Positions 1 to 63,745 of a stretch of DNA of 64,000 bases are shown in pieces. The notes below the pieces were generated by a model. The model did not search any database. It was not told the DNA's origin and saw only the letters and a list, made by a program, of their open reading frames with translations. The stretch comes from Branchiostoma floridae (taxonomy: Eukaryota; Chordata; Leptocardii; Amphioxiformes; Branchiostomatidae). A program made the position numbers and the translations under genes. The stretch is taken from positions 8,160,251-8,224,250 of the forward strand of contig NC_049986.1 of NCBI RefSeq assembly GCF_000003815.2, read 5' to 3'. Positions within the stretch are counted from its first letter, which is position 1. Each line of letters starts with the position of its first letter.

Positions 1-675
1 GTTGTACTATGCACTTAAGTCATAAACGTAACGCACATTCTGTAATTAGGACGCCATGACGTGTGGAAGTTAAAATATACAGTGACACCGCTGATAAAGT
101 AGCGTTCCAGAACTTCGACATTCCCGGCGAGCTTCAATGTTTTAAAGCCTTGTGAAAAAGATACTAAGTAATTTTTGGTATTGAAATGACTTTCTTCGCT
201 ATGCCCATGGGTTGTACTATGCACTTCAAGTGATAAAACTAACGCACATTTTGTAATTTGGACGCCATGACGTACGGAAGTTAAAATATACAGTGACACC
301 GCTGATAAAGTAGCGTTCCAGAACTTCGACATTCCGGTGAGGTTCCCAATGTTTTAAAGCCTTGTGAAAAAGTTACTAAGTAATTTTTGGTAGTGAAATG
401 ACTTTCTTCGCTATGCTCATGTGTTTAACTATGCACTTTAAGTGATAAAAGTAACGCACATTTTGTAATTTGGACGCCATGACGTGTGGAAGTTAAAATA
501 TACAGTGGCACCGCTGATAAACTAGCGTTCCAGAACCCCGAGAATCGGGTGAGGTTCAATGTTTTAAAGCCTTGTGAAAAAGTTACTAAGTAATTTTTGG
601 TAGTGAAATAGCTTCTTACGCTATGCCCATGGCCATGGGTTGTACTATGCACTTCAAGTGATAAAGGTAACGCAC

Positions 676-775
676 NNNNNNNNNNNNNNNNNNNNNNNNN
701 NNNNNNNNNNNNNNNNNNNNNNNNNNNNNNNNNNNNNNNNNNNNNNNNNNNNNNNNNNNNNNNNNNNNNNNNNNN
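676..775. other. Assembly gap (100 N) inside the satellite
   Basis: Exactly 100 N, a size often used for gaps of unknown length. It interrupts a satellite unit, so copy number here is unreliable. Confidence 0.99.
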
Positions 776-1635
776 GATAAAGTAGCGTTCCAGAACTTCG
801 TCATTCTGGGTGAGGTTCAATGTTTTAAAGCCTTGTGAAAAGTTACTAAGTAATTTTTTGTAGTGCTATGACTTTCTAAGCTATGCCCATGTGTTGTACT
901 ATGCACTTCAAGTGATAAAAGTAACGCACATTTTGTCATTTGGACGTCATGACGTTCGGAAGTTAAAATATACAGTGACACCGCTGATAAAGTAGAGTTC
1001 CAGAACTCCGACAATCTGGTGAGGTTCAATGTTTTAAAGCCTTGTGAAAAAGTTACTAAGTAATTTTTGGCAGTCAAATGACTTTCTACGTTATGCCCAT
1101 GGGTTGTACTATGCACTTCAAGTGATAAAAGTAACGCACATTTTGTAATTTGGACGCCATGACGTGCGGAAGTTAAATATACAGTGACACCGCTGATAAA
1201 CTAGCGTTCCAGAACTTCGACATTCCGGTGAGGTTCCCAATGTTTTAAAGCCTTGTGAAAAAGTTACTAAGTAATTTTTGGTAGTGAAATGACTTTCTAA
1301 GCTATGCCCATGGGTTGTACTATGCACTTCAAGTGATAAACGTAACGCACATTTTGTAATTTGGACGTCATGACGTGCGGAAGTTAAAATATACAGTGAC
1401 ACCGCTGATAAAGTAGCGTTCCAGAACTTCGTCATTCTGGGTGAAGGTCAATGTTTTAAAGCCTTGTGAAAAAGTTACTAAGTAATTTTTGGTAGTGAAA
1501 TGACTTTCTTCGCTATGCCCATGGGTTGTACTATGCACTTCAAGTGATAAAAGTAACGCACATTTTGTCATTTGGACGCCATGACGTGCGGAAGTTAAAA
1601 TATACAGTGACACCGCTGATAATGAGGCTCTCGAG

Positions 1636-2050
1636 NNNNNNNNNNNNNNNNNNNNNNNNNNNNNNNNNNNNNNNNNNNNNNNNNNNNNNNNNNNNNNNNN
1701 NNNNNNNNNNNNNNNNNNNNNNNNNNNNNNNNNNNNNNNNNNNNNNNNNNNNNNNNNNNNNNNNNNNNNNNNNNNNNNNNNNNNNNNNNNNNNNNNNNNN
1801 NNNNNNNNNNNNNNNNNNNNNNNNNNNNNNNNNNNNNNNNNNNNNNNNNNNNNNNNNNNNNNNNNNNNNNNNNNNNNNNNNNNNNNNNNNNNNNNNNNNN
1901 NNNNNNNNNNNNNNNNNNNNNNNNNNNNNNNNNNNNNNNNNNNNNNNNNNNNNNNNNNNNNNNNNNNNNNNNNNNNNNNNNNNNNNNNNNNNNNNNNNNN
2001 NNNNNNNNNNNNNNNNNNNNNNNNNNNNNNNNNNNNNNNNNNNNNNNNNN
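1636..2050. other. Assembly gap (415 N) inside the satellite
   Basis: A run of 415 N. The 14 bases before it (1622-1635, ending CTCTCGAG) depart from the satellite consensus exactly at the gap edge, which suggests low-quality or artefactual sequence there. Confidence 0.97.
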
Positions 2051-5000
2051 TTCTAGAACGCCGACAATCGGGTGAGGTTCAATGTTTTAAAGCCTTGTGA
2101 AAAAGTTACTAAGTAATTTTTGGTAGTGAAATAACTTCTTACGCTATGCCCATGGGTTGTACTATGCACTTCAAGTGATAAAAGTAACGCACATTTTGTA
2201 ATTTGGACGCCATGACGTGCGGAAGTTAAAATATATATACAGTGACACCGCTGATAAAGTAGCGTTCCAGAACTTCGTCATTCTGGGTGAGGTCTAATGT
2301 TTTAAAGCCTTGTGAAAAAGATACTAAGTAATTTTTGGTAGTGAAAAGACTTTCTTCGCTATGCCCATGGGTTGTACTATGCACTGAAAGTGATAAAAGT
2401 AACGCACATTTTGTAATTTGGACGCCATGACGTGCGGAAGTTAAAATATACAGTGGCACCGCTGATAAAGTAGAGTTCCAGAACTCCGACAATCTGGTGA
2501 GGTTCAATGTTTTAAAGCCTTGGTGAAAAAGTTACTAAGTAATTTTTGGCAGTCAAATGACTTTCTACGTTATGCCCATGGGTTGTACTATGCACTTCAA
2601 GTGATAAAAGTTACGCACATTTTGTAATTTTGACGCCATGACGTGCGGAAGTTAAATATACAGTGACACCGCTGATAAACTAGCGTTCCAGAACTTCGAC
2701 ATTCCGGTGAGGTTAAATGTTTTGAAGCCTTGTGAAAAAGTTACTAAGTAATTTTGGGTAGTGAAATGACTTTCTTCGCTATGCCCATGGGTTGTACTAT
2801 GTACTTCAAGTGATAAAAATAACGCACATTTTGTAATTTGGACGCCATGACGTGTGGAAGTTAAAATATACAGTGACACCGTTGATAAAGTAGCGTTCCA
2901 GAACTCCGACAATCGGGTGAGGTTCCCAATATTTTAAAGCCTTGTGATAAAGTTACTAAGTAATTTTTGGTAGTGAAATGACTTTCTACGCTATGCCCAT
3001 GTGTTGTACTATGTACTTCAAGTGATAAAAGTAACGCACATTTTGTAATTTGGACGTCATGACGTGCGGAAGTTAAAATATACAGTGACACCGCTGATAA
3101 AGTGGCGTTCCAGAATTTCGACATTCCGGTGAGGTTAAATGTTTTAAAGCCTTGTCAAAAAGTTACTAAGTAATTTTTGGCAATGCAATAACTTTCTAAG
3201 CTATGCCCATGTGTTGTACTATGCACTTCAAGTGATAAAAGTAACGCACATTTTGTAATTTGGACGCCATGACGTGCGGAAGTTAAAATATACAGTGACA
3301 CCGCTGATAAAGTAGCGTTCCAGAACTTCGTCATTCTGGGTGAAGGTCAATGTTTTAAAGCCTTGTGAAAAATATACTAAGTAATTTTTTGTAGTGAAAT
3401 GACTTTCTTCGCTATGCCCATGGGTTGTACTATGCACTTCAAGTGATAAAAGTAACGCATATTTTGTAATTTGGACGCCATGACGTGTGGAAGTTGAAAT
3501 ATACAGTGACACCGCTGATAAAGTAGCGTTCCAGAACTTCGTCATTCTGGGTGAGCTTCAATGTTTTAAAGCCTTGTGAAAAAGTTACTAAGTAATTTTT
3601 TGCAATGGAATGACTTTCTACGCTATGCCCATGGGTTGTACTATGCAATTCAAGTGATAAAAGTAACGCACATTTTGTAATTTGGACGTCATGACGTGTG
3701 GAAGTTAAAATATACAATGACACCGCTGATAAAGTAGAGTTCCAGAACTTTGACATTCGGGGTGAGGTTCAATGTTTTAAAGCCTTCTGAAAAAGTTACC
3801 AAGTAACTCTTTGCAGTCAAATGACTTTCTACGTTATGCCCATGGGTTGTACTATGCACTTCAAGTGATAAAAGTAACGCACATTTTGTAATTTGGATGC
3901 CGTGACGTGCGGAAGTTAAAATTTACAGTGACAACGCTGATAAAGTAGCGTTCCAGAACTTCGACATTCCCGGTGAGGTTCAATGTTTTAAAGCCTTGTG
4001 AAAAAGTTACTAAGTAATTTTTTGCAGTCAAATGACTTTCTACGTTATTCCCATGGGTTGTACTCTGCACTTCAAGTGATAAAAGTAACGCACATTTTGT
4101 AATTTGGACGCCATGACGTGCGGAAGTTGAAATATACAGTGACACCGCTGATAAAGTAGCGTTCCAGAACTTCGTCATTCTGGGTGAGCTTCAATGTTTT
4201 AAAGCCTTGTGAAAAAGTTACTAAGTAATTTTTTGCAATGGAATGACTTTCTACGCTATGCCCATGGGTTGTACTATGCAATTCAAGTGATAAAAGTAAC
4301 GCACATTTTGTAATTTGGATGCCGTGACGTGCGGAAGTTAAAATATACAGTGACACCGCTGATAAAGTAGCGTTCCAGAACTTCGACATTCCGGTGAGGT
4401 TCAATGTTTTAAAGCCTTGTGAAAAAGTTACTAAGTATTTTTTTGCAATGGAATGACTTTCTACGCTATGCCCATGGGTTGTACTCTGCACTTCAAGTGA
4501 TAAAAGTAACGCACATTTTGTAATTTGGACGTCATGACGTGTGGAAGTTAAAATATACAATGACACCGCTGATAAAGTAGAGTTCCAGAACTTCGACATT
4601 CGGGGTGAGGTTCAATGTTTTAAAGCCTTCTGAAAAAGTTACCAAGTAACTCTTTGCAGTCAAATGACTTTCTACGTTATGCCCATGGGTTGTACTATGC
4701 ACTTCAAGTGATAAAAGTAACGCACATTTTGTAATTTGGATGCCGTGACGTGCGGAAATTAAAATTTACAGTGACAACGCTGATAAAGTAGCGTTCCAGA
4801 ACTTCGACATTCCCGGTGAGGTTCAATGTTTTAAAGCCTTGTGAAAAAGTTACTAAGTAATTTTTGGTAGTGAAATGACTAACTTCGCTATGCCCGTGGG
4901 TTGTACTATGCACTTCAAGTGATAAAAGTAACGCACATTTTGTAATTTGGACGCCATGACGTGCGGAAGTTAAAATATACAGTGACACCGCTGATAAAGT

Positions 5001-6120
5001 AGCGTTCCAGAACTTCGTCATTCTGGGTGAAGGTCAATGTTTTAAAGCCTTGTGAAAAATATACTAAGTAATTTTTGGTAGTGAAATGACTTTCTTCGCT
5101 ATGCCCATGGGTTGTACTATGCACTTCAAGTGATAAAAGTAACGCATATTTTGTAATTTGGACGCCATGACGTGTGGAAGTTGAAATATACAGTGACACC
5201 GCTGATAAAGTAGCGTTCCAGAACTTCGTCATTCTGGGTGAGCTTCAATGTTTTAAAGCCTTGTGAAAAAGTTACTAAGTAATTTTTTGCAATGGAATGA
5301 CTTTCTACGCTATACCCATGGGTTTTAGTATGGAATTCAAGTGATAAAAGTAACGCACATTTTGTAATTTGGACGCCATGACGTGCGGAAGTTAAAATAT
5401 ACAGTGACACCGCTGATAAAGTAGCGTTCCAGAACTTCGACATTCCGGGCGCGGGTGAGGTTCAATGTTTTAAAGCCTTCTGAAAAAGTTACCAAGTAAC
5501 TTTTTGCAGTCAAATGACTTTCTACGCTATGCCCATGGGTTGTACTATGCACTTCAAGTGATAAAAGTAACGCACATTTTGTAATTTGGATGCCGTGACG
5601 TGCGGAAGTTAAAATTTACAGTGACACCGCTGATAAAGTAGCGTTCCAGAATTTCGACATTCCCGGTGAGGTTCAATGTTTTAAAGCCTTGTGAAAAAGT
5701 TACTAAGTAATTTTTTGCAGTCAAATGACTTTCTACGTTATGCCCATGGGTTGTACTATGCACTTCAAGTGATAAAAGTAACTCACATTTTGTAATTTGG
5801 ACGCCATGACGTGCGGAAGTTAAAATATACAGTGACACCGCTGATAAAGTAGCGTTCCAGAATTTCGACATTCGGGGTGAGGTTCAATGTTTTAAAGCCT
5901 TGTCAAAAAGTTACTAAGTAATTTTACTAAGTTACTAAGTTACTAAGTAACGCTGATAAAGTAGCGTTCCAGAACCCCGACATTGGGGGTGAGGTTTAAT
6001 GTTTTAAAGCCTTGTGGAAAAGTTATAAAGTAATTTTGGCAGTCAAATGACTTTTTACGTTCTGTCGAGGGGTTTTAGTATGGAATTCAAGTGATAAAAG
6101 TCACACTGACACCACTGATA

Positions 6121-44679: not shown

Positions 44680-45760
44680 AACATAAAAGGGGACAGAACT
44701 TCAGTACTAAGGACAGGGGGCAGAACTTCAATACTAAGTAAAGGAGACAAAACTGAAGTACTAAGGACAGGAGACAGAGCTTCAGTACTAAGGACATGGA
44801 GACAGAACTTCAGTACTAAGGACAGGGGACAGAACTCCAGTACTAAGGACAGAGGACAGAACTTCAGTACTAAGTACAGGGGACAGAACTTCAGTACTAA
44901 GGACAGGGGACAGAACTTCAGTACTAAGGACAGGGGACAGAACTTCAGCAATAAGTACAGGGGACAGAACTCCAGTACTAAGGACAGAGGACAGAACTTC
45001 AGTACTAAGTACAGGGGACAGAACTTCAGTACTAAGTACAGGGGACAGAACTTCAGTACTAAGGACAGGGGACAGAACTTCAGCAATAAGGACAGGGGAC
45101 AGGACTTAAGTACTAAGTACAGAGGACAGAACTTCAGTACTAAGTACAGGAGACAGAACTTCAGCAATAAGTACAGGAGACAGAACTTCAGTACTAAATA
45201 CAGGAGACAGAACTTCAGTACTAAGTACAGGAGACAGACCGTCAGCACTAAGTACAGGAGACAGAACTTCAGCAATAAGTACAGGAGACAGAACTTCAGT
45301 ATTAAGTACAGGAGACAGAACGTCAGCACTAAGTACAGGAGACAGACCGTCAGCACTAAGTACAGGAGACAGAACTTCAGCAATAAGGACAGGAGACAGA
45401 ATTTCAGCAATAAGTACAGGAGACAGAACGTCAGTACTAAGTACAGGAGACAGAACTTCAGTACTAAGTGCAGGAGACAGAACTTCAGCAATAAGTACAG
45501 GAGACAGAACTTCAGCAATACGTACAGGAGACAGAACTTCAGCAATACGTACAGGAGACAGAACGTCAGTACTAAGTACAGGAGACAGAACGTCAGTACT
45601 AAGTACAGGAGACAGACCGTCAGCACTAAGTACAGGAGACAGAACTTCAGCAATAAGGACAGGGGACAGGACTTCAGTACTAATTGCAGACAGACCTTCA
45701 GTGCCAAGGACAGGGTACAGGACTTCAGTACTAAGTACATGGGACAGAACTTAAGTACAA
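44680..45760. repeat. 27-bp minisatellite, ~39 copies, open on both strands
   Basis: The unit is TACAGGAGACAGAACTTCAG plus TACTAAG, and its length is a multiple of three. On the plus strand it reads as a 9-residue repeat, NFSTKYRRQ, for ~330 codons inside a 369-codon frame (44665-45774). On the minus strand it reads as a Leu/Cys-rich 9-mer inside a 450-codon frame. The left half is mostly GGGGACAG units and the right half GGAGACAG, which shows block amplification. A +1 base insertion near 44797 shifts frame without a stop, which argues against coding constraint. A consensus donor TTCAG|GTAAGG follows at 45765. I treat it as a minisatellite; a coding exon remains possible. Confidence 0.85.
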
Positions 45761-47024: not shown

Positions 47025-47124
47025 NNNNNNNNNNNNNNNNNNNNNNNNNNNNNNNNNNNNNNNNNNNNNNNNNNNNNNNNNNNNNNNNNNNNNNNNNNNN
47101 NNNNNNNNNNNNNNNNNNNNNNNN
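47025..47124. other. Assembly gap (100 N)
   Basis: 100 N between a hAT-type MITE and a large hairpin; repeats probably broke the assembly. Confidence 0.99.
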
Positions 47125-50629: not shown

Positions 50630-53600
50630 CTGAAGAGATCGAGTATCATGGTCATGTTCAAATTCTTCTTAAACTATCGACTGATATATAGAGAGTGTTT
50701 TTGCGTGACGTCGTTACTGTATGCAATTTTGCTTTCCTTGCATTCATAGATCTGATCCTCTAAAATAGCAAATACTGAATGTCTACAGTTCAAAGAAGAA
50801 GATACTGTAAAGTACTTAAAAATTTGCTGGCGAAACAAAAAATTCTGCGCATGCACCCATTAGATGCAAATAGGGAAACCAACATTGTGGTTAGCAACTT
50901 TCTGCTTGCAGATATGAGAGAAAAACATTCTGCAGTATTCTTTGGCGAAAACAAAGAGCTCTTTCTGCAATATTCTTTGGCAAAAAGGAAGAGCTCTTTC
51001 TGCATTATTCTTTGGCAGAAACAAAGCTCTTTCTGCATTATTCTTTGGCAAAAAACAAAGAGCTGTTTTTCTACAAACTGCTCATAAGAATGTGTCGCGT
51101 AGTACCTGCTGTTCATAAGCAGCATGCAAGGTGGCGCTGCTCTCAGCCTCCTCTGTGAACTCCTCCATACTGGTTGTGGGCTGGACCCCTGAGGACAGCA
51201 CGGCCTGCTTCAGGGCCTCGGGAACAACTGATGACATGGAACCGATCTCCCTTCCAGCGTGGGAAGTCTGGTGATGTGATATATGGGAAAAATTAAGCCA
51301 TGGTGCACAATGGTACAGAAAATTCAGGATGCCTGGACCCAATTGTTTGTGAATGGGCGATACTCAAAACAATGGTCCATTTCGCTACAAAGGAATCTGT
51401 TTGGTGGAGTATCCTATCTTCATGTAAATAATGCTAACTGCTTCTGTTAAGTCAGACTGTTAGACCAAGTCTGATTGTAAAAACTTGTTAAAAATGACTC
51501 AACTCTCCTCTACTTTGGTTATTTTCTTGAAACTGACACATGAACACCTGTCGCCGTAGTGCAGGTATAATCTGTTCATTTTCTGATCAGTCCAACATCC
51601 GGTCCACTGATTTTTTTAGGTCCGTTTTTCTGGACTGGTCCAACAAGAAAAAACAGTTTTGTACCGGTTCACTGTACCGGTACCAACCCCTAGTGCACAC
51701 ACAACCTGAAAGATGCAAGGACAAGAATGGATCAAAGAACAGGAATGAAGATGTTGTTACTAGAGGTCCAAATGTGTCCCCACCTTTCTTCTCTTGGCAG
51801 GGATTCCTGTGGAGTAGGCATCACTGAATGGTGGCTGGGGCTGCAGGCTTCTCTGGGTTTCAATGTCCCTCTGGATGACTGGCACCCAATCCTGCAGAGA
51901 GAGATAACACACATTCTTAAATGTAATAAATTATATGATATTGTGGGAATGATATTATGGGAAATGTGTGTGTGAGAGTATCAGCAAAATGTCCGCAATT
52001 TTGGAAGGTTTTTTTTTTTTTCAGAGAAACCTCAAGCTAAAACAGAAAAAAACTTACATGCATTACAAATTGTGTTACCATGGTGACAAGTCCTCCACCA
52101 ATGGGAGGCTACAAAGTTAATCTACTCACAGCAAGCACATCTGACTACCATGGCAGGCCTTATGACAAATAGTGCTACTGTAACAACATGTCTTCCACCA
52201 ATGAGAGGCTACAAAATTGATCTACTGATTGTCATGAAATGATGTTACCATAGCAACAAGTCCTCCACCAATGGGAGGCCACAAAGATAATCTACTCACA
52301 GCAGGTACAACTGACTGCCATGGCAGGCCTTATTAGAAATGGTGTTGCCATAGCAACAAGTCCTCCACTAATAGGAGGCTACAAAGATGCTCTACTCACA
52401 GCAGGTACCACTGACTGCCATGGCAGGCCTGGTGCACCTGCTGGCTCCTCCTCATCATCCATAGCCTCAGGTTCGGGGACACCATTCAGGGAGCCGGCTT
52501 TCTCACTCCTCCCAGTATTCTCCTGGGGAAAATCATGTAGTCACATGTGGAAGCTACTGTAAAATTTAGTTATGTTTGCAGGGACTTCAACTTCTTTTCC
52601 CCATTACTACAGTACACTTCAGTCTTATGTGTAGTATTAGTAGCATTGTGGTAGAATTTTATGAGGAGGTCAACATAAAACAATCCTATATACTTCCAAT
52701 ATTAATAGCAATCTTTGATGCTTCACAATTTCCTAATTCAAGTAAAGGTTTTTTTTTCAACCTCTATTTAGCCTTGAGTTACATACTAGTATCCCTTCAG
52801 CCTAAGTCGGTTTTCAAGGGATCAAGGTTGCAATGGGTTTTTATCTACTGGGTCTAAGGTACAGTATGGGGAGGCCAAACCCAACCCTCTCCTTCCACCA
52901 CCTTTACTGCGGTCACTTCCCCAACTGAAGTCAGATACCACCTTTACACTTTTAGTGGTGTGAGGAAAGTTGTGTTAAAGTGCCTTTCCAAAAGGCACAA
53001 GATTTAGTTGAATGACAGGATTCAAACCCAGACTTTTGGGTTCTGGGCCAAATACCCTACAGTTACTCCACATGACCCCACTTAGGCCACAGCAAGTACA
53101 TTTTATGGATGACATCCTCTGCAGACTGCAAAAATAATGAGATAGGGCGAAAAAAAAACAAGATGGGTAAAAAAAACAAGATGGCAAATTTTCAAAATAG
53201 ACGTTGTAACAAGACTTGAAGTGACAAAATATGGCATCACAGCCAACAAGGCATTCATTCCTGTACTTAAGAAGTGCACCAGTGTAGCTAAAGTGACACT
53301 AGTGTGGTAGACTGGTATCATTAACCATGTTGGCAACTTCACTCATGTGCCACTTTTACAACTAACTATCAAGTTGCACCTCTGCAACTACAGTCAATGC
53401 TACAGAGTTTCTAGTGTCAATTCTACATTCAATGATTAGGTTACAACACAACCTTTACCCATTTTTGTCTATCCGGCCTTCCCTGAAGAAGAAAAAAATT
53501 CTTGTATTTTTTTCTGAAATCAGGCAAAAATTAATGAGCATGTGTCATCCATAAAATTTACTTGCTGTGGCCTTAATCAAGTCCACAATTAAACCCTGAC

Positions 53601-56600
53601 AAAAATACTTAACCCTCCGGAATGGAATATCCTCAAATCTACAATACAAAAAAAATAATAATAGAGATATCATGATATCAAGTCTATTATGTCAGATAGA
53701 TATTTTGCACACTTGTGGTCGGCTTTCTTCAGCATTTGCTCGATCCCTTTTCTGTCCCTGGCAGCTGGTGACCTCCTCTGCCCTGGTAACCTCCTGTGCT
53801 CTATTGTCTGGGGTGGGAGTGACTTCTTCAGCAACCTGTATGGTATAGGATAAAGCGCACATGTACTGTAAATGCATTAAATTTCATGGTAGCAGGAAAA
53901 TGGAGTGTTCGCGGTGGTTTCGAGTTTGCAGTAGTGCCCATCCCGCGAACTTAAATGCATTTACAGTGACTGTACTGTACTCTAGTCTTAAACTGATAAG
54001 AAAACCTGGCGCCTGTACGAACCATAAGTCGGAAACCACTTACTAGTTACTCGGCAAGGGTGCTACAAATGGACAGAACAGTTCACTCTTGACTTGACTA
54101 TGCTGGCATGATCCCCTGTCACTGATCTAACTCTCAATTCATAGTACAGCACAATTTTCTATGTTATGTAGTATGTCGCATGGAGAAATGAATGAAAGTG
54201 TACTCAAAACATTTGTGTCTTGTACTAAGTTGTAGGTATTTGTATGTCCTATGTGACAGGTACCTCAAAAATTCATTATGATACTGTGACAATGTACATG
54301 TATAGTACATACAAGTTTCTCACAGTGCCAGGTGCTGCAGGTGTACTCTCAGGTGCAGTGTGTGCCACCTGTTTGACACATCTGTAACCTACAGCTACGA
54401 CTATAAGTCTTGCAAAGACAAACATTTCTCACAGTGTCAGGTGCTGCAGGTGTGCTGTCAGGTGCAGCCTGTTCCACCTGCGCCGGCTGTGGCTCCCTCC
54501 TGACGTAGTAGTGCTGGATCTGGCTCTCGGGGACACTGACCGTCTGCATCAGGTTCCGCAGGTGTCCTGTGGACATGGTCTGCATCCAGGTCAGGATGGC
54601 TGGGTTCACCTCACCAGCCAGCACTCTCTGTTATAGGGGGGGAGGGGGGCATTGTGAGTAGAGATGTTACAAAGATAGGTACAGGTACAGGTACAGGTAT
54701 TGATTACTGAGGTTAAGGCATAGGTCCAAACCTGTACCTGTACCTGAATATCTTGACAAAGTAAACTGTGGTTGTCATTGAGGATAAAGACTTGAATAAA
54801 CAGTGAACAGAATGTTACTGTAAATGCAGAAACTTTGGAGGTGGTTTAATGCTTTCACGGTGGCTGCTTCACCGCAAGCTTAAAACCACCACAAACATTT
54901 TTCCATGGCAGTAAGAGACAACAGTGCATGGTGCTACCGCGAACTTAAAATCACAGTGAAATGTCATTTTTCCTACTACCGCGAAATTTAATCCCTGCGA
55001 ACTTAAATGCATTTACAGTATTCTTTCTTGTGTATCTTACAAAGGGATCCCATGCTTTTGAGAGAATTTGAGAACAAAGATGGTGCTGTACAAATATGCC
55101 TGAGTGTACAAATTTCATCTTTTTCCAGGGCTGAATTTTTACGTTTTTTATTCTTGCAGATCATTCATACTTTTAGTAACAAAATAAGTCAAAAAGCTTA
55201 AAACACGTGTAAGTCTATTTTGGTACAGTAATTGGTATATTGAGATCTGGGCACAAGACCACTCCTGAAAACATAACCTTGTTGGCAAAGGTAATAACGT
55301 TCAAGCCAAGTAATGTTTGTTATGATACTTACCATCCTGCTGTTAATGATCCTCTCCACGCCTCTCAGTCCGTCTGTTATACAGCTTGTGGACAGCCGCA
55401 GCCATTCCTGTACAGCCACACGACAGGCCTCGAACAGTCGCTGGGCAAAACCTGCATCATCATCTGAAAAGAACATTTCACACTTTTTGAAGAAGCCTTT
55501 TTTTTCCTGCAAACACTGCATGAAGGGGTACAGTCCGAAAATCTGTCAATGAAAATTAACATCACACAATTTCTATTTTCCGTCTGAACCATATAACGTT
55601 ACTCGCTGAAGTAAATATGAGGTATATTGATGTATTCCATTATATTCTATTCTATCTAATTCTATTCTACATGTATTGTATATGAAGGAATTTTTGCAGT
55701 TCTTGTTTGCACATGTATTGTATATGCAGAAAATGTTAGTTTTATGTTGACAATAATTTTAGTTTTATATTGTTTGCCTTTTTCACTGTGATCTCTTTAC
55801 CACAAACTTGAAACCATCACGAAATGCTTGTTCTGTCTTCTGCTTTCCTTAAGCTTTACTTCAACGCTTCCTATTTCAAAATCATAAATAAAGGCACAAA
55901 CATACAAACGCAATTCTGAATGCAAAATTCTACTCTATCCTTATCCTTTCCTATTCTGTTCTGTTCTATTCTATTCCATTTCATTCTTTTCTAATATAAT
56001 ATCTATTCTATTCTAGTCTATTCTAGTCTATTCTATTCCAGTGATTCTATTTCAGTCCATTTTATTCCGGTGTTTAACATTAGTTCACCTTTATCTGCAG
56101 GGTAACCTATATCCGTTGTGTAGCTAAACAGGGTATCCAGGGATATCACGCCAATGGAAGGCAGTTTCAAAATGTACTATTTTCACAATATTGCAGTTGG
56201 AAATCATCATCTGTCGACATGGTATCCCTAAATACATTGTGCTTAAAAAGGACGGATAAAGGTTACCCTACGGATAAAGGTGAACTGGTGTTACTCACCC
56301 GTAGAGTTGGCAATGATGTTCATGACCCTGTACATGTGATGTCTACAGAACTCTGTGTGTGTCCTCACAAGGTCGATGTTGTCATGACCCTGAACTTGGG
56401 CATCATTCTGAGTGAGAGAGAAAAAAGCTCATCACATTGAATAAAGACACATTGTTTTTAAAAGTGCCATTTGAAATTTTCTTAGTTCATAGACCTATAA
56501 GACAATCCATACTCACAATGGCATCTGTGATGTAACACTGCATACTGTCCAGTATCCTACCAACAGCTGCCTGTAAGAGAGAAGACAGTTCCAGTCAGTT

Positions 56601-59600
56601 ACAATGCTAACTGGTATGCCAAGATGATGGCCTCAATAAGGCTATGGAACGTCCTAATCCAGCAGCAAAAAAAATCATGGACAGAGTGATAGCTAATGCT
56701 ATTTCACCTTTATCCGCAGGGCAATCTATATCTGTTCCTTGTAAATTGTAATTTCGTTTCAAAAGTACTAATATTTCTAATTGCAGTTTTGAAACCAATG
56801 TCCGCCAATTTCATATCCCTTACCACATGGATAAAAGTGAACTAGCGTTACAACCATCATCCATCAGTAGTTAATGCCTAAAGATTGCTGATGTACACCT
56901 TCTGAGATAAATGATTGACACCTTCTGAGATAAATGATTGACACCTTCTGAGATGATTGATTGACACCTTCTGAGATAAATGATTGATACCTTCTGAGAT
57001 GATTGATGGACACCTTCTGAGATAAATGATTGACACCTTCTGAGATGATTGATGGACACCTTCTGAGATAAATGATTGACACCTTCTGAGATGATTGATG
57101 GACACCTTCTGAGATAAATGATTGACACCTTCTGAGATGATTGATGGACACCTTCTGAGATAAATGATTGACACCTTCTGAGATGATTGATGGACACCTT
57201 CTGAGATAAATGATTGACACCTTCTGAGATGATTGATTGACACCTTCTGAGATAAATGATTGACACCTTCTGAGATGATTGACACCTTCTGAAATGATTG
57301 ATTGACACCTGAGATAAATGATTGACACCTTCTGAGATGATTGACACCTTCTGAAATGATTGATGGACACCTTCTGAGATAAATGATTGACACCTTCTGA
57401 AATGATTGATTGACACCTTCTGAGATAAATGATTGACACCTTCTGAGATGATTGACAGACACCTTCTGAGATGATTGACTGACACCTTCTGAGATGACTG
57501 ATTGACACCTTCTGACATAAATGATTGACACCTTCTGAGATAATTGATTGACAACTTCTGTGATGATTGATTGACACCTTCTAAGATGCCTTGAGAGATG
57601 ATTGACACCATCTGAGATAATTGACAACTTCTGAGATGCCTTCTGAGATGATTAATTGACACCTTCTGAGATGCCTTCTGAAATGATTGATTGACACCTG
57701 AATTGAATGAGTGACATCTTCTGAGATAATTGACACCTTCTGACATGATTGACTGACATCTGAGATGATTGATTGACACCTTCTGAGATGGTTGACTGCC
57801 ATCTGAGATGATTGATTGACACCTTCTGGGATGGTTGATTGACAGTTTCTCCTCCTCCTTACCTGGATGTTGGCCTGAGTTGGAGGCTGGTCCTGAAGCT
57901 GGCTGGTGACAAACTGTTCCAGCTGGGGGCGCACGTTAGCCAGCGGGGCCGACTGACCGAAGAACAGCCTCATCAGGTCAAGGAAGGTGAAGCTACTGGT
58001 CAGCAACTGGAACAGCTCGGCCAGGAAACCTGGTGGTCACGACAGAAACATCAATCAAACTCAGGATACTCCCAAATGTAGACTACTGATCGAAAGGAGA
58101 ACTACAAAATAGACATACTGCAATGAAAAATACATCAAAACCTCAACTACAACAATACTGTAAGTTATATCTATTGTATTAAATGGTTAAAGCGTAACGA
58201 ATGAGAAAAATGAGAAAATCAATATCAAACAAACAAACAAAAATGACAGAAATAACGACAAACTTAAGTATCTAACAAAGGGAACAGAAAATAATCTAAT
58301 CAATACTTAAAAGATAATAGACAGTCATCTTGACTCAAGACTGTATGGACTTGACCTAAGCAAGTAATCAAGAGTAACCAAATAAAATAACTTGAAAATT
58401 AGAACAATGGCAGTACAGAGAAACAAATCTTAGTCCAAGTTGTTTACTGTTGTCATGTTTACCTTCTTCTTCTTGAATATTGTACTCAGGACTTATCCTG
58501 GTCAGGAAGTCAGCGATGGTCTCTGCGGACGGCTGACCGACCGCTGCCTGCTGCATGAACCCCCCGATCCCACCAATCAGGCTGTGGAACGTCTCGTCCG
58601 ACACGCCGGCTCTCGGGGGCGGGGCGGGGGGCTGGTCGCTCTGATTGGCTGGCTGTGTGCCCGGGGAGGGTTCCGTGGTGGGGCTGCCGGCGGTTGTTGT
58701 TGTTGTTGTGTTTGTGGAGGAACTAGACATCGTGGATTGGGACCCGGCCTTGGAAGTGATACAGAACAACATTTTTACTTTAAAGTTTATTGCAAATTCT
58801 TGCCCGTGGGCTAATTGCAGGTAACATGAGAGATTCAGATAAAGCACCTCCTTGGATAAAGTAAAAACAACATCAAAGGTGTAGTCGAAAACTAGTAAAA
58901 CCTAACTCTAGATCCTGGATTATTGGGTTCGATGAGACCGCTGAACAGACAAGTGCAGAGTGGAGACTAGCCGACTGCTGCCTACCCATGTCAGGGACCC
59001 CAGCAGCAGTATAATCAAATACTGGATACTACTACTTCTACTACCACTACTACCACCACTACTACAACTAGTACTACTTCTACTGTGTGATTAACCAAAA
59101 AACATGAAAGGTAGACCTCTACTCACAAAAGCCTTGAAGCAGTAGAGATAATATTGTTTTATTATCAAAATTGAAAATCATGACATATAGTATACTAATA
59201 CCCTACCTCCCTGATCCCGTCTTGCACAATGTCCTGGAACGTGGTTGAGAAGCTCTGCGCCCCTTGGGGCGTGGCAGGGGGCGGGGCCTGACCCCCAGCA
59301 GAGGAGGCGGGAGGTTGGAGGATGGCATCAAACATGTTGACTATAGCCTGGGGGTTCAGGGGTTGGGTGGGGGGTCCCCTGGGGCCTGTTCCAGGTGCAC
59401 CTTGGGCTAAAAAAAGGGAAATAAAGTGAATTTGAACCAGTTTAAGTACTTTAACTAAATGAAATCAATGAACGGTTAAGCTAGTCTTCTATTGGTCATA
59501 ACAGAAAGACCAAAGATAATTTATACACATTCATTGTTCAAATTCTGTTTTCAATTATACACATTCATTATTCAAATTCTGTTTTTAACTGTTTTCAATT

Positions 59601-62600
59601 GATGTTTGTAAATACTTACCATTGTACTAGTATGTACGTTATTGTTTGTATGAGGTCCAGGAAGATTAGTGGCGTGTCCTCGGGTACGTTATTAGTGGAT
59701 TTTCTAATGAAGTCTCAAAGCCTCAAAGTCCCTTGCTCTTTTTGACAAGCACAATGAACTGTGGACGACAACTTAACATCCCATCCTTAGGACTGCAACC
59801 CTTTCTGGTAGCATGCATGTCATAGCTAACAGTAAGAGAGGACTTACGGTGTAGATACGGGTTCTGCTGCTGCATCAGTCCCTGTAACACACCCTGTATC
59901 ATAGCTAACAGTAAGAGAGGACTTACGGTGTAGATACGGGTTCTGCTGCTGCATCAGTCCCTGTAACACACCCTGTATCATAGCTAACAGTAAGAGAGGA
60001 CTTACGGTGTAGATATGGGTTCTGCTGCTGCATCAGTCCCTGTAACACTCCCTGTATCATAGCTAACAGTAAGAGAGGACTTACGGTGTAGATATGGGTT
60101 CTGCTGCTGCATCAGTCCCTGTAACATTCCCTGTATCATAGCTAACAGTTAGAGTGGACTTACGGTGTAGATACGGGTTCTGCTGCTGCATCAGTCCCTG
60201 TAACACACCCTGTATCATAGCTAACAGTAAGAGAGGACTTACGGTGTAGATATGGGTTCTGCTGCTGCATCAGTCCCTGTAACACTCCCTGTATCATAGC
60301 TAACAGTAAGAGAGGACTTACGGTGTAGATACGGGTTCTGCTGCTGCATCAGTCCCTGTAACACACCCTGTATCATAGCTAACAGTAAGAGAGGACTTAC
60401 GGTGTAGATATGGGTTCTGCTGCTGCATCAGTCCCTGTAACACTCCCTGTATCATAGCTAACAGTAAGAGAGGACTTACGGTGTAGATACGGGTTCTGCT
60501 GCTGCATCAGTCCCTGTAACACTCCCTGTATCATAGCTAACAGTAAGAGAGGACTTACGGTGTAGATATGGGTTCTGCTGCTGCATCAGTCCCTGTAACA
60601 CTCCCTGTATCATAGCTAACAGTAAGAGAGGACTTACGGTGTAGATACGGGTTCTGCTGCTGCATCAGTCCCTGTAACACTCCCTGTATCATAGCTAACA
60701 GTAAGAGAGGACTTACGGTGTAGATACGGGTTCTGCTGCTGCATCAGTCCCTGTAACACTCCCTGTATCATAGCTAACAGTAAGAGAGGACTTACGGTGT
60801 AGATACGGGTTCTGCTGCTGCATCAGTCCCTGTAACACTCCCTGTATCATGTCACCCAGCTGTCCATCACCAGTACTGACAACTCCAGCCTGTGGAAGAC
60901 ATTGTAATTTGACTTTATTCAGGTTGCCACACGTACAAGTACAATACAAGTACAAGTACCATACAAGTCATTGTACTGATGTGAAACTTAAACAGAAACT
61001 TGTTGATGAGATTAGACATCCAGGTAATAAGATACGCCAAAAAGTAGTTACTCAAGCAACTGGATATGATTTTCCAAAATCATATCAAGGGCCAGGATAC
61101 AAACAACAGATACATGAGAGATGCTTTTTCAAAAGATTAGAAATCATTGACGATGTTGCAGCTTACTTGTGGCTGTGGTTGCTGTGGTGGCGGGGCCCGC
61201 GGCTGTTGGTTCTGGTTCTGACGGACCACGAGGAAGTGGCGAGAAGAACACGGCAGGAAAGGGTCGGTGGGGTTCAGTGCGACAGTCCCTGGGACGGCCA
61301 TGGGGCCCCTCCCCGGCTGCCCGGTGGTGAATCGAGGCAGGGGACGACCCATGTTACCCGGGGGCTGTGTGCCAGGTCTACCTGGGGCGGCGGTGCTAGT
61401 TCTTCCATTACCTGTAACGGGATTACATTGTACATTGGTCATATAGTACTAGTGCTGAGCTCCATTGCAAAAAGTTATTTCACTAACTAATGAACAGCTC
61501 TTGCATGTCTAAACCATGTTTGATATAAGGTCCAAAAATGTCATATTCTACACAAACAGACTATGAAAGGGTGCATTGATGGTGAAGGTTAGACATTCAG
61601 ATACATAATACATTAAATATGATAAATTAAACATACTGTAAGGTCTAATATCTAACAGAGTCATACAATATAACCAGCTGTGAACAGTAAACATGTCTTT
61701 GAAGAGAAGTGGACAAAGTACTGTAATTGCATTGAATTTCATGGGAATTCAATTTCATAGTAGGGAGAAAATGGAGTGTTTCTGGTGGTTTCAAGTTTGT
61801 CAGTAGGAAGGCAGGCAGAAAACAATAGATTTTGCAGTGGTTAAAGTTTGTGGTGCAGAGGTCAACATGATAAATGCAAACATAAAACCACTACAAAAAT
61901 GTCTGCATTTACAGAATGCAAATTGTATTGGCCTTATCCAGTTGTTTCTTGTATGAAATTTTGTAGACTGTACGGAACAGTACTGACCAGCTGGCTGTTG
62001 TTGGGGCGGCTGCTGCCCCTGACGCTGCCCAGGACCCGCCATGTTTGCTGCAGCCGTGGCTGCTGCAGTGGCTGCGGCTGCTGCTGCAGTAGCTGTGGCT
62101 GAGGCGGCATGCTGGGATACTTGCTGCATGATCTGCTGCATGAGTTGGGGCGGGGCCATGGGGATGGCTCCTGTGGAGAACCTGGCACCTGGAGGGTGGA
62201 TTAAAGGTCAAGTTACAAAACCTGTTTGTTTTAGCATAAAGTTTATCTGTGTTGGTAGAATATATTATAGAAAAAATGCTAACACTTTACTTCCAACACT
62301 GAATGAAATAAACTTTCTGATACTTTATCACCCCCTCCTGCAAAAGTGGTGTGTTCCTGACGTTACTGCTGGAGATAGAAGGGTCATTCTGTGAACAGGG
62401 TCAACGGAGATTGACCGAAAATTTAGAGGGGTAAGTCCCTATAGTTTAATTCAGTGTAGGAAGTAAAGTGTAAGAATTTTTTCTATAAACTTGTTTGTTG
62501 GTTCTACATTTGTATTTTATTCTATTCTATACTTAACTGGGCAAAGCCCCCTTAAGGCCACAATAAAGGGAATTCTGCTCAGTTGTCAGGAGGTGCAAGG

Positions 62601-63745
62601 TACCTGTGTGGCCGGTGGTGGTTTGATCATAAGGCCACAGGGCTTGAATTTTATTTTGTGGGTTAGGTGCAACCTAAAAAATTGGGTACACCAAAAATGT
62701 TTTGGGTGTACCACATCAAATAAAGTAGAATGTCTGAAAAACCTAATTACAAACCTTACTGCTACTCTTCTGAGCTTGAATCTGAAATGGGAGCTCTGTG
62801 ACAAAAATTCCAATTTTGGATGCACACCCAGTATTTTGAGCCCTAGGCCATGTTGATTTGATTATATGGATGACATCCACGCACACATAAATGTAAGATT
62901 GCTGCAAACACGTCACCATTCATGGTTGTCAGTTTGTTCGAAGATAAAACACACCTGCAGGGTTAGTTGTTGTTGTAAAGTGTCTGGTCACTGTCACACT
63001 CGGTCCAGGGGCGGAGGATGCAGGGGGTGCACCCTGAGCGGTGGAACTTGCAGTGGAACCTGTTGTGCTTGTCCCTGCAGACACACCTGCTATGACATCA
63101 AAACAAAGAACCAGCTAAAAAATGGCTCTACCCCTGTGCTGTTGCCAAGAACAATGTGGGACTCAGAAGCTATTAAAACTTGTAGCACAGAGACTGGTTT
63201 ACCTGGATGCCTGTTAAGGTCCTTTTAGACACACCTGCCATTATATCAAAACTAAGAGCCAGCTGAAAAACTGCTCCTCCCCTGTGGTATCACCAAAAAA
63301 CCTGGGGGGTTCAGAAACTGCTAGAACTTCTTTACCCTGTAGACCCTGACACACCTGTAATTACACAAAAACTAAGAGCGAGCTGATTGCTCCTCCCCTG
63401 TGGTATCACCAAAAAACTGGGGGATTTCGAAACTGCTAAACCTTAAAGCACAATGGCTTCTTTACCCTGTAGACCCGGACACACCTGTAATTACACAAAT
63501 ACAAATGTACTAAGATTCAGCTGGAATATGGTTTTACCCTTGTGGTGTCGCCAAAAAATTGTGGGACTGTTGAAACTGGAGCACAGTGACTGGTTTACCT
63601 GTGGAGGCCTGCTGAGGTCCCTGTCCAGGGGGGTGGATGGTTGCCGTGATACGGTTGATGTAGAAACCCTGGGGACCCATCTCCAGCATCACCAGGGGGT
63701 CAGAGGGGGTACCCCCTCCACCTATCACCTGTCGGAAGGTTGCAC
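50531..63745 (-). CDS. BAG6: BAG6 (BAT3/Scythe) orthologue, 3' 17 coding exons; 5' end off the window
   Basis: Seventeen minus-strand exons join in frame to about 857 codons with matching phases at every junction. Known role of the family: a nuclear and cytosolic chaperone scaffold with GET4/TRC35 and UBL4A. It captures hydrophobic segments, passes tail-anchored proteins toward ER insertion and sends mislocalised proteins to ubiquitination. What the sequence shows: a Pro/Gln-rich middle part, a conserved helical region, a nuclear-localisation-type PAKRRK before the end, and a C-terminal BAG-like domain matching vertebrate BAG6 closely (NDPNYTPERFP against EDPNYSPQRFP). The ubiquitin-like domain and N-terminal third must lie right of 63745. 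Some introns carry tandem copies of exon ends (see findings). Exon 13's donor is the weakest call. Span given; exons listed separately. Confidence 0.95.
50935..51065 (-). repeat. Short tandem repeat in BAG6 intron 16
   Basis: Four to five copies of an ~32-bp unit, CTCTTTCTGCAATATTCTTT plus GGCAAAAACAAAG. Open frames over it are artefacts. Confidence 0.85.
51106..51267 (-). CDS. BAG6: BAG6 exon 16, start of the BAG-like domain
   Basis: Acceptor CACATCACCAG, donor GAACAGCAG|GTACTA. 162 nt, phase 0 to 0. PEALKQAVLSSGVQPTTSME...TLHAAYEQQ aligns with SEAVSRAAKAAGARPLTSPE...EVQESYRQQ. Read-through of the donor stops after seven codons. Confidence 0.95.
51304..51692 (+). mobile_element. hAT-type MITE in BAG6 intron 15
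   Basis: TGGTACAGAAAATTCAGGAT...ACTGTACCGGTACCAACCCCTA, with GTGCACAA before 51312 and GTGCACAC after the element, an 8-bp duplication with one mismatch. The left end is eroded. Confidence 0.7.
51784..51891 (-). CDS. BAG6: BAG6 exon 15 with nuclear-localisation motif
   Basis: Acceptor CTCTCTCTGCAG, donor AGAAAG|GTGGGG. 108 nt, phase 0 to 0. DWVPVIQRDIETQRSLQPQP...FSDAYSTGIPAKRRK aligns with EWVPIIQQDIQSQRKVKPQP...LSDAYLSGMPAKRRK. The PAKRRK basic cluster is the known nuclear signal of the family. Confidence 0.96.
52072..52399 (-). repeat. BAG6: Tandem copies of the exon-14 end plus donor in BAG6 intron 14
   Basis: Units start near 52340, 52243, 52172 and 52072. Minus strand: exon end GCCTGCCATGGCAGTCAG...ACCTGCT|GTGAGTAGA, then a spacer with GTGGAGGACTTGTTGCTATG. 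Full exon-end copies with donor lie at 52302-52330 and 52131-52160; one unit has lost that part. They lack clear phase-neutral micro-exons. Confidence 0.8.
52400..52522 (-). CDS. BAG6: BAG6 exon 14
   Basis: Acceptor TTTTCCCCAG, donor CCTGCT|GTGAGT. 123 nt, phase 0 to 0. EPEAMDDEEEPAGAPGLPWQ then SVVPA precedes the conserved DWVPV of exon 15 (human PW...VPPEWVPI). Confidence 0.92.
52860..53100 (-). mobile_element. tRNA-derived SINE in BAG6 intron 13
   Basis: Minus strand: GTGGAGTAACTGTAGGGTAT, then GTCTGGGTTTGAATCCTGTC (B-box), then the family body ending near GGGTTTGGCC. Same family as 7.9 and 46.4 kb. Confidence 0.7.
53713..53835 (-). CDS. BAG6: BAG6 exon 13 (donor uncertain)
   Basis: Acceptor CCTATACCATACAG. 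It encodes VAEEVTPTPDNRAQEVTRAE then EVTSCQGQKRDRANAEESRP, a charged low-complexity linker. The donor chosen is CCACAA|GTGTGC, which keeps phase 0. GAGGAG|GTCACC and CAGGAG|GTTACC further upstream would also keep phase. Confidence 0.7.
53864..53968. mobile_element. MITE family B, short copy next to the exon-13 acceptor
   Basis: TACTGTAAATGCATTAAATT and CTTAAATGCATTTACAGT ends, 105 bp, with its edge 29 bp from exon 13. Confidence 0.75.
54322..54366 (-). repeat. BAG6: Duplicate of the exon-12 end and donor inside intron 12
   Basis: On the minus strand CAAACAG then GTGGCACACACTGCACCTGA...GCACCTGGCACT|GTGAGA is a diverged copy, 110 bp downstream, of the exon-12 end and donor. Between AAACAG and GTGAGA it reads 45 nt in phase 0 with no stop (VAHTAPESTPAAPGT), so it could be an alternative exon. 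No independent evidence that it is used. Confidence 0.7.
54433..54627 (-). CDS. BAG6: BAG6 exon 12
   Basis: Acceptor CCCCTATAACAG, donor GACACT|GTGAGA. 195 nt, phase 0 to 0. EVNPAILTWMQTMSTGHLRN and QIQHYYVRRE align with VNPSLVSWLTTMMGLRLQ and AILRYVRRV. The tail is Pro/Ala-rich. Confidence 0.95.
54816..55020. mobile_element. MITE family B in BAG6 intron 11
   Basis: TACTGTAAATGCAGAAACTT and ACTTAAATGCATTTACAGTA ends. Inner CCGCGAACTTAAAA and GGTGGTTTAATG words. 205 bp. Confidence 0.8.
55333..55463 (-). CDS. BAG6: BAG6 exon 11
   Basis: Acceptor GTTCTTTTCAG, donor AGGATG|GTAAGT. 131 nt, phase 1 to 0. DDAGFAQRLFEACRVAVQEW aligns with [30 protein letters not shown] aligns with LAAVINGRI. Confidence 0.95.
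55930..56074. repeat. (TTCTA)n-type degenerate pentanucleotide tract
   Basis: CTATTCTATTCC-like words for about 130 bp in BAG6 intron 10. A smaller patch is at 55645-55672. Confidence 0.85.
56075..56293. mobile_element. MITE family A (copy 5) abutting the BAG6 exon-10 donor
   Basis: Ends TAACATTAGTTCACCTTTAT and, inverted, TAACACCAGTTCACCTTTAT. The right end at 56293 is intron base +6 of exon 10: GTGAG belongs to the host and TAAC to the element. Confidence 0.8.
56299..56407 (-). CDS. BAG6: BAG6 exon 10
   Basis: Acceptor CTCTCACTCAG, donor CTACGG|GTGAGT. 109 nt, phase 0 to 1. NIDLVRTHTEFCRHHMYRVM aligns with VDIIRTNLEFLQEQFNSIAA. A MITE lies 5 bases beyond the exon end. Confidence 0.93.
56517..56570 (-). 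CDS. BAG6: BAG6 exon 9
   Basis: Acceptor TCTCTTACAG, donor GCCATT|GTGAGT. 54 nt, phase 0 to 0. AAVGRILDSMQCYITDAI corresponds to the ATHTLITGLEEYVRESF helix. Confidence 0.88.
56694..56850. mobile_element. MITE family A (copy 6, internally deleted) in BAG6 intron 8
   Basis: The left end TAATGCTATTTCACCTTTAT pairs with the right end TGGATAAAAGTGAACTAGCG then TTA. About 157 bp. Confidence 0.75.
56890..57845 (-). repeat. 23-bp minisatellite filling BAG6 intron 8
   Basis: Unit ACACCTTCTGAGATAAATGA plus TTG, alternating with ...GATGATTGATGG (46-bp dimer), about 42 copies with some 19-20-bp variants. It begins 18 bp past the exon-8 donor. On the minus strand all three frames are open for 240-300 codons, because 23 is not a multiple of three and the unit has no stop. 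The peptides (SQKVSIIYLRRCQ...) are therefore repeat artefacts. Each unit also contains TCTCAGAAGGTGTC, with AG and GGTGT splice-like words. Confidence 0.92.
57863..58029 (-). CDS. BAG6: BAG6 exon 8
   Basis: Acceptor CGTGACCACCAG, donor ATCCAG|GTAAGG. 167 nt, phase 1 to phase 0. FLAELFQLLTSSFTFLDLMR and RPQLEQFV...PTQANIQ align with FFGALLSLLCQNFSMVDVVM and QPQLRSFF...PTPSNIR. One of the best-conserved blocks. Confidence 0.95.
58030..58462 (-). other. BAG6 intron 7
   Basis: AT-rich, about 430 bp; nothing recognised. Confidence 0.6.
58463..58748 (-). CDS. BAG6: BAG6 exon 7
   Basis: Acceptor TCACTTCCAAG, donor GAAGAAG|GTAAAC. 286 nt, phase 0 to phase 1. It has a Ser/Thr-rich start (TMSSSSTNTTTTTTAG), a Pro-rich linker, then SDETFHSLIGGIGGFMQQ and ETIADFLTRISPEYNI. 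These align with EFFTSVVQGVLSSLLG and ESIAAFIQRLSGSSNI of vertebrate BAG6. Confidence 0.93.
58749..59206 (-). other. BAG6 intron 6
   Basis: Contains a CTACTAC/ACTACCACC imperfect trinucleotide stretch (59027-59080). Nothing else recognised. Confidence 0.6.
59207..59406 (-). CDS. BAG6: BAG6 exon 6
   Basis: Acceptor CCTTTTTTTAG, donor AGGGAG|GTAGGG. 200 nt, phase 1 to phase 0. It encodes QGAPGTGPRGPP, NPQAIVNMFDAILQPP and FSTTFQDIVQDGIRE. The hydrophobic helices resemble the middle part of BAG6. Confidence 0.9.
59822..60795 (-). repeat. BAG6: 79-bp tandem array: 12 extra copies of the BAG6 exon-5 end with its donor
   Basis: Donors GTAAGT recur every 79 bp from 60794 down to 59846. Minus-strand unit: a 22-nt spacer starting GTAAGTCCTCTC and ending TTACTGTTAG, then 57 nt encoding PMIQGVLQGLMQQQNPYLH when joined in frame. 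The spacer has a donor at one end and a pyrimidine-rich acceptor at the other. Twenty-two nt is below known animal intron sizes, but skipping a unit gives 101 nt. Base changes between copies in the 57 nt are two synonymous sites (Gly, Pro) and one Val to Met. Read straight through, the array shifts frame and stops. Confidence 0.9.
60796..60889 (-). CDS. BAG6: BAG6 exon 5, whose 3' end is copied 12 more times in the next intron
   Basis: Acceptor TGTCTTCCACAG, donor CTACACC|GTAAGT. 94 nt, phase 0 to phase 1. It encodes AGVVSTGDGQLGD then MIQGVLQGLMQQQNPYLH, matching vertebrate AQMVSGLVGQLLMQP. The last 55 bases and the donor are the seed of the 79-bp array that follows. Any of the 13 donors could in principle be used. 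Confidence 0.9.
61167..61411 (-). CDS. BAG6: BAG6 exon 4
   Basis: Acceptor ATCCCGTTACAG, donor CCACAA|GTAAGC. 245 nt, phase 1 to phase 0. It encodes GNGRTSTAAPGRPGTQPPGN, a segment LNPTDPFLPCSSRHFLVV, and a Pro/Gln tail (APPPQQPQPQ). The LPCSSRHF segment looks ordered compared with its surroundings. Confidence 0.9.
61719..61915. mobile_element. MITE family B in BAG6 intron 3
   Basis: TACTGTAATTGCATTGAATT and the end GTCTGCATTTACAG. The inner arms are decayed at CpG sites compared with 14.67 kb, consistent with an older copy. Confidence 0.65.
61988..62188 (-). CDS. BAG6: BAG6 exon 3
   Basis: Acceptor CCACCCTCCAG, donor CAGCTG|GTCAGT. 201 nt, phase 1 to phase 1. It encodes APPQLMQQIMQQVSQHAA, then an Ala/Thr run (TATAAAAAATAAATAAA) and a Gln/Pro tract. 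The Ala run is coded by mixed GCN codons. Plus-strand frames across it are shadows. Confidence 0.9.
62848..62890. repeat. Short copy of the 29.8-kb inverted-repeat arm
   Basis: GCCATGTTGATTTGATTATA...TGGATGACATCCACGC matches arms at 29847 and 30272. It lies in BAG6 intron 2. Apart from this, 62189-62954 shows nothing identifiable. Confidence 0.7.
62955..63086 (-). CDS. BAG6: BAG6 exon 2
   Basis: Acceptor CATAGCAG, donor CTGCAG|GTGTGT. 132 nt, phase 1 to phase 1. A Ser/Thr/Ala/Pro linker (SAGTSTTGSTASS, APPASSAPGPS) ending VTVTRHFTTTTNP; no fold expected. Confidence 0.85.
63087..63598 (-). repeat. BAG6 intron made of four tandem ~120-148-bp copies
   Basis: Unit joints lie at 63229, 63349 and 63479. 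Each joint reads, on the minus strand, acceptor-CAG|GTGTGTC (the start of the downstream exon). At the 63229 joint a degraded copy of the upstream exon's end follows, GGACCTTAACAGGC then ATCCAG|GTAAACC. So the duplicated unit is the whole small intron plus both exon edges. The micro-exons are not phase-neutral (32 nt in one copy) and look like decoys. Confidence 0.75.
63599..63745 (-). CDS. BAG6: BAG6 exon 1 of those in the window
   Basis: Acceptor CCCCTCCCCCAG, donor CCACAG|GTAAAC. It begins with two bases of a split codon and ends with one (phase 1). It encodes ATFRQVIGGGG and DPLVMLEMGPQGFYINRI, the latter resembling EPVVMMHMNIQ of vertebrate BAG6. The previous exon is beyond the window. 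Confidence 0.85.

Follow-up and report, generated by a model that had tools for sequence, protein, structure and literature searches.

The 64,000-nt stretch of Branchiostoma floridae DNA analyzed here (the window) contains, on the minus strand of a gene identified as BAG6 by its Pfam and PDB matches, a minisatellite in which a 79-bp unit lying across a splice donor is repeated 13 times (array 1, 59820..60850; defined by TRF, donor positions and unit alignment). Structurally, array 1 corresponds to the definition of an amphioxus 'mirage', i.e., a tandem unit across the exon-intron boundary of an amphioxus gene, with the splice signal present in 13/13 units. Our preferred reading, to which we assign a probability of roughly 85%, is that array 1 is such a mirage: a neutral minisatellite that was born at the boundary and is spliced out with the intron starting at the first donor. 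Additionally, BAG6 holds four boundary-spanning duplications of different ages, which are reported here as new.

Identification of the gene was based on several matches. In a Pfam search of 15 frames, 4/15 scored above the curated cut-off. The ubiquitin-like exon of the gene matched PF00240 with 52.2 bits and, in the PDB, four BAG6/HLA-B-associated transcript 3 chains (E 1.8e-10 to 2.4e-10) as well as numerous ubiquitin chains. Two open frames matched the BAG6 family PF12057, scoring 27.1 and 58.4 bits against a cut-off of 25, and the C-terminal exon at 51784..51891 on the minus strand (DWVPVIQRDIETQ...) matched PDB chain 7ru9_D, the large proline-rich protein BAG6 (E 5e-13). On the same strand, the open frame at 51082..51363 scored 29.1 bits (cut-off 22.9) for the Bag6_BAGS (BAG-similar) domain PF20960, and the PDB gave no match to it at E <= 0.1. 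The repeated exon's own frame had no Pfam family above cut-off. Judged by these Pfam and PDB matches, the gene carrying array 1 is BAG6, the gene named in a preliminary description of this DNA. As to the species, two published B. floridae primers, the AmphiAmR11 reverse primer and the amphiER full-length forward primer, each have one exact match in the genome. An amphiER RACE primer had no exact match, perhaps because an exon junction lies within it, and a GFP-family search gave no hit, an outcome that does not demonstrate absence; both results slightly weaken the assignment to this species.

The exon in question ('exon 5', 60796..60889, minus strand, 94 nt) is an open frame encoding AGVVSTGDGQLGDMIQGVLQGLMQQQNPYLH plus 1 nt, with the acceptor TCTTCCACAG and the donor CACC|GTAAGT, and unit 0 of array 1 forms its end. 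The next BAG6 exon (59207..59406, minus strand) is in frame with 60796; its acceptor is CTTTTTTTAG|CCCAAG, in which CTTTTTTTAG before 59406 forms a strong tract, and its donor is GGGAG|GTAGGG. Frame analysis placed a canonical phase-1 intron between the two exons (59407..60795, minus strand), with a length of 1389 nt, or 441 nt when the 12 extra units are subtracted, and the canonical join of 60796 to 59406 given in the preliminary description was right.

For array 1, TRF returned a period of 79, 13.1 copies and 98% matches over the span 59820-60850. Of the 79 bp in a unit, 57 derive from the exon end with its junction and 22 from the start of the intron, and the identical donor CACC|GTAAGT is found in 13/13 units, with the last exon base at 60796-79k (k=0-12, minus strand). 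A TTAG closes 22 nt after the donor in 13/13 units, and in 12/13 units this stretch leads into another unit, so that 12 potential 57-nt exons are defined. Translated in phase 1, these 57 nt give PMIQGVLQGLMQQQNPYLH (19 aa) and are frame-neutral. These measurements bear out what had been noticed earlier, namely the 13 repeated donors in a 79-bp unit with 12 extra copies, the acceptor-like site 22 nt past the donor, and the frame-keeping 57-nt exon of 19 residues. Chance origin of this pattern is excluded by the array itself.

The units of array 1 are nearly uniform. Units 1-12 vary at 5/79 positions, three exonic and two intronic, and their mean divergence is 1.9% (exon part 2.1%, intron part 1.5%). 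Over all 13 copies, the exon part carries two synonymous variants (GGA/GGT and CCG/CCA) and one Val/Met variant (GTG/ATG) that occurs in one unit. The preliminary description had these exon variants correctly but missed the two in the intron part, both of which sit in unit 8 and lower its acceptor-like site from 2.4 to -1.4 bits. Edge unit 0 is the same as units 1 and 2 apart from its first two bases, which differ because they belong to the flank. For mirages, homogenisation of the interior units to the exclusion of those at the edge is a described feature; in array 1 the low divergence of units 1-12 is accompanied by this identity of edge unit 0 with units 1 and 2. A check for a two-unit higher-order repeat gave a slightly higher unit identity at lag 2 (98.2%) than at lag 1 (97.8%).

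Tandem repeats across exon-intron boundaries of amphioxus genes go by the name of 'mirages' in PMC3087553, where one is described in Adh3, with units of 10-72 bp and somatic instability, and others in the globin genes BflGb9 (157 bp) and BflGb6 (150-160 bp; two haplotypes carry 6 and 3 units, respectively). Further mirages, in troponin C and PGBD5, are reported in PMC3902484, and PGBD5 has two of them, with 60- and 108-bp units. Like these minisatellites of B. floridae genes, whose units range over 10-160 bp, array 1 is placed on a boundary and carries splice signals in many units, and the two splice-site arrays within PGBD5 resemble the set of arrays in BAG6. The BAG6 arrays differ from the published mirages in the 13 near-identical units of array 1, in the number of arrays within the gene, four of differing age, and in the repetition of whole introns with both splice sites in array 3. 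As stated in PMC3087553, mirages show length instability, and the Adh3 data and globin RT-PCR presented there suggest that regular splicing is left undisturbed. The preliminary description had offered an unusual tolerated decoy array as one way to read array 1; the tolerated decoy holds, but an array of this kind is not so unusual, being known from amphioxus genes.

Repeats of this type raise the question of mis-assembly, which could have produced array 1 itself or its copy number. At least 12 matches to array 1 were found in the assembly, all of them at C8:8220081-8221150 and thus at one place among the matches listed. The pattern of variants is mixed along the units, and no N is present within the array; these features argue against an artefact, which we regard as highly improbable. 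The copy number of 13 could nevertheless be wrong in the assembly. According to PMC3902484, the two PGBD5 mirages have 2 and 3 copies in one lancelet assembly vs 7 and 6 in another, and PMC3087553 describes one globin mirage that was aberrantly assembled in the draft, although the differing copy number of PGBD5 also fits real polymorphism.

The bases at the junctions of array 1 suggest how it may have been born. The exon reads GAC-ATGA-TACAG, the intron GCT-ATGA-CATG and the unit junction GCT-ATGA-TACAG. The 4-nt ATGA at the unit junction also occurs in both flanks, exonic and intronic, as expected of a microhomology-mediated tandem duplication. A segment that starts within the BAG6 exon and extends some 28 nt into the intron would have been duplicated in tandem at this microhomology, and slippage or unequal exchange could have expanded it to 13 units. 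The spliceosome would take the acceptor at 60889 as defining the exon and join the donor at 60795 to 59406, and the other 12 donors would be discarded with the intron, as published data suggest for other mirages. Tolerance of array 1 would follow from the donor being retained in the copy adjoining the intact exon, and the array would expand and contract neutrally. The three other boundary-spanning duplications in BAG6 may represent stages of the same process of birth and decay.

The consequences of using other donors were followed by joining all 13 donors to 59406, and donor 0 alone kept the BAG6 frame. Use of donor 1 adds 79 nt and shifts the frame, leading to a stop after 83 codons from the exon start, within the next exon read out of frame; use of donors 2-12 leads to a stop after 58 codons. 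Since a later donor results in a frameshift or a stop, selection would keep the use of the outermost donor only. What speaks against silent removal is that the 13 donors are identical, and that proximity effects could favour later ones.

Splice signals were scored with human-type matrices and ranked among the GTs or AGs on the minus strand of the window. By these human-type scores, the array 1 donor reached 2.2 bits (top 2.2% of GTs), the array 1 acceptor-like site 2.4 bits (top 6.1% of AGs), the exon 5 acceptor 3.5 bits (top 3.4%), and the true downstream acceptor, that of exon 6, 6.3 bits (top 0.4%). The acceptor-like site of array 1 is modest. Full matches to the branch-point-like motif yUnAy are situated 8 nt (too near) and 50 nt (rather far) from its AG, and partial matches occur at -25, -27 and -31, so a usable branch point may be available.

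The 22 nt that separate neighbouring units of array 1 are too few to make up an intron. Productive alternative splicing would instead have to take non-adjacent units as 57-nt exons, separated by introns of 101 nt or more, and would give proteins with variable, perhaps polymorphic, numbers of Gln/Leu/Met-rich 19-residue repeats. On the side of this reading, the 57 nt are frame-neutral and inclusion of every second unit leaves the reading frame open through the next exon; the acceptor-like site ranks in the top 6.1% of AGs as given above, 2/3 exonic variable sites are synonymous, and sub-introns of 101-116 nt exist as sequence in array 3 of the same gene. However, divisibility of 57 by 3 is a one-in-three event, the branch-point setting is doubtful, synonymous changes are not significantly in excess (P about 0.10), and no single micro-exon of array 3 is frame-neutral. 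Published mirages are stated to be spliced regularly, and in the case of PGBD5 a gene predictor (JGI) turned the repeats into an exon that the authors of PMC3902484 excluded, reporting that EST or mRNA support was not found. We therefore consider productive splicing of array 1 very unlikely. The preliminary description had proposed proteins of variable repeat number; the frame for these is indeed open, but nothing beyond it supports the idea.

The 12 identical extra donors, each of which leads to a stop or frameshift if used, could also be taken as a regulatory decoy, in which extra donors and acceptors send some transcripts to nonsense-mediated decay or slow splicing, and the copy number tunes BAG6 dose. 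With just three exonic variable sites, two of them synonymous, selection on array 1 is indistinguishable from chance, and this lack of a detectable sign of selection counts against a regulatory role. Additionally, exon boundaries in the gene were not hit above random positions, as detailed below, and the Adh and TnC mirages are said in PMC3902484 not to yield aberrant mRNAs. A regulatory decoy is thus given very little credence, and a neutral mirage removed with its intron is retained as the preferred reading of array 1.

Placement of repeats relative to exon boundaries was assessed for 32 placed BAG6 boundaries (18 donors and 14 acceptors), a count that leaves out 14 of the assumed 46 boundaries as not exactly placeable. 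The 40 nt centred on each boundary were compared with the sequence 30-600 nt away, a comparison that catches array 3 through its acceptor only. Matches of at least 28/40 were obtained for 4/32 boundaries vs 179/1500 random positions of the locus, where the 4/32 leans high because the donor of E20 was listed after its duplication had been noticed. At thresholds of 30/40 and 36/40 or better, the counts were 3/32 vs 165/1500 and 2/32 vs 116/1500, respectively. As hits at the boundaries did not exceed those at random positions, they are read as chance placement of a frequent process. In the 304 kb around BAG6 (64,887 bases of which are N), TRF found 46 arrays with a period of at least 20, covering 37,291 bases. 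The absence of a boundary preference fits the prediction of a blind process.

A preference of minisatellites for exon boundaries was also considered from the side of the arrays. A rough per-array count, made before array 4 was found, placed 3 of 5 arrays on a boundary (P 0.02; 0.10 when array 1 is taken as given). This mild excess per array speaks against blind placement. The preference was rejected because the per-position control was without excess.

The other arrays of BAG6 were recognized by local self-comparison and by reading of the boundaries, with tiles of more than half N skipped. Array 2 (52073..52430, minus strand) is an older donor-spanning repeat, in which the true donor, with its GT at 52399 (CCTGCT|GTGAGT), has copies at 52299 and 52129. 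The donor copies are 82-87% alike over 101 nt, corresponding to 13-18% divergence, and an own-genome search located array 2 at one place in the genome. Array 4 (54316..54480, minus strand) is a two-copy duplication of an exon end, CCTGCAGCACCTGACACT|GTGAGA, with donor GTs at 54432 (the true one) and 54323, and 50/61 bases around the donors are alike in the two copies.

Array 3 (63086..63599, minus strand) is an intron consisting of four units in tandem; every unit has a GTAAA[CG] resembling a donor as well as an acceptor CAG|GTGTGTC, and the best self-match of the array has a divergence of about 30%. Within the intron of 63598-63087, donor-like sites occur at 63598, 63465, 63335 and 63202, and the first exon-side bases of the acceptors are at 63484, 63354, 63234 and 63086. 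This arrangement defines potential sub-introns of 114, 111, 101 and 116 nt and potential micro-exons of 19, 19 and 32 nt. The frame is lost with any one of these micro-exons and with all three, and is kept with 19+32. The exon after array 3 is 132 nt long and frame-neutral, and it opens with the same motif as the array 3 acceptors.

By the human-type matrices, two upstream acceptor copies of array 3 score 3.4 bits, the presumed true acceptor 0.8 and the third copy -0.5. As the upstream copies outscore the presumed true acceptor, silence of the copies is less obvious in array 3. The original donor scores 3.5 bits and the micro-exon donors 1.3-3.5 bits, again by the human-type matrix, and joining the upstream exon to any array 3 acceptor recreates a donor, CAG|GTGTGT, of 5.4 bits. 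Because this recreated donor scores higher than the original one, array 3 might be removed stepwise (by recursive splicing), from which, judging by the sequence, a normal mRNA would result too. We judge it unlikely, though not negligibly so, that the spliceosome makes use of any of the four BAG6 arrays, whether of array 1 for length-variable 57-nt coding exons or of array 3 by stepwise removal; if true, this would mean that multiplication of introns and exons has been caught at four ages.

Related arrangements have been described in amphioxus and elsewhere. The introns of VCBP3 hold complete or partial copies of exons beside their source exons, some of them with canonical splice sites, which is similar to the BAG6 arrays; in contrast to these, the exon copies are not termed tandem minisatellites in the accessible text of PMC2632668. 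In Cryptococcus, intron gain by repeat expansion in CNN00420 (PMC2395259) involves units with both splice sites, as in array 3, whose units likewise hold complete introns by sequence (101-116 nt). The repeated introns of CNN00420 are described as spliced, with EST support, and as polymorphic. Unlike CNN00420, the units of array 1, with 22 nt from donor to acceptor-like site, contain no complete spliceable intron, and single micro-exons of array 3 shift the frame. As in Rogers-type intron gain, tandem duplication supplies a new donor and a new acceptor, but what is duplicated in array 1 is a boundary already present (CACC|GTAAGT) and not an exonic AGGT.

Titles and abstract beginnings of the amphioxus literature on BAG6, mirages and boundary repeats revealed no BAG6 case, and the accessible portions of PMC2206037 and PMC2812944 contained nothing on boundary arrays in amphioxus. 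The BAG6 arrays seem to be undescribed as far as the searched literature goes. The new points are the gene, BAG6, the high and uniform copy number, the four arrays of different age, and the array that repeats whole introns.

Boundary-spanning repeats have been proposed as raw material for intron gain (PMC3087553), and the four BAG6 arrays, with divergence rising from 1.9% over 13-18% to about 30%, provide a time series of the birth and decay of such repeats. Identical donors in natural tandem arrays offer a ready test of spliceosome choice between equivalent sites; a literature search on competition between identical donors found no match. The arrays are also a caution for gene predictors, given that boundary repeats have already produced a doubtful exon in PGBD5.

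Other repeats were observed in the surroundings of the arrays. A minisatellite of 23/46 bp, 950 bp long and without exon sequence, occupies 56895-57844, its edge lying 18 nt inside the intron that follows the BAG6 donor at 57862. Another, with a 27-bp unit and 39.7 copies, extends over 44688-45758 and has open frames of up to 457 aa from stop to stop; these long frames occur on both strands because 27 is a multiple of 3, and they are probably not a gene. Arrays of a 211-bp satellite occupy the left end of the window (1-5925) and are found as far as about 21 kb beyond it on the contig, followed further left by 183-bp satellite arrays. The window includes N runs at 676-775, 1636-2050 and 47025-47124, two of the three being inside the satellite region.
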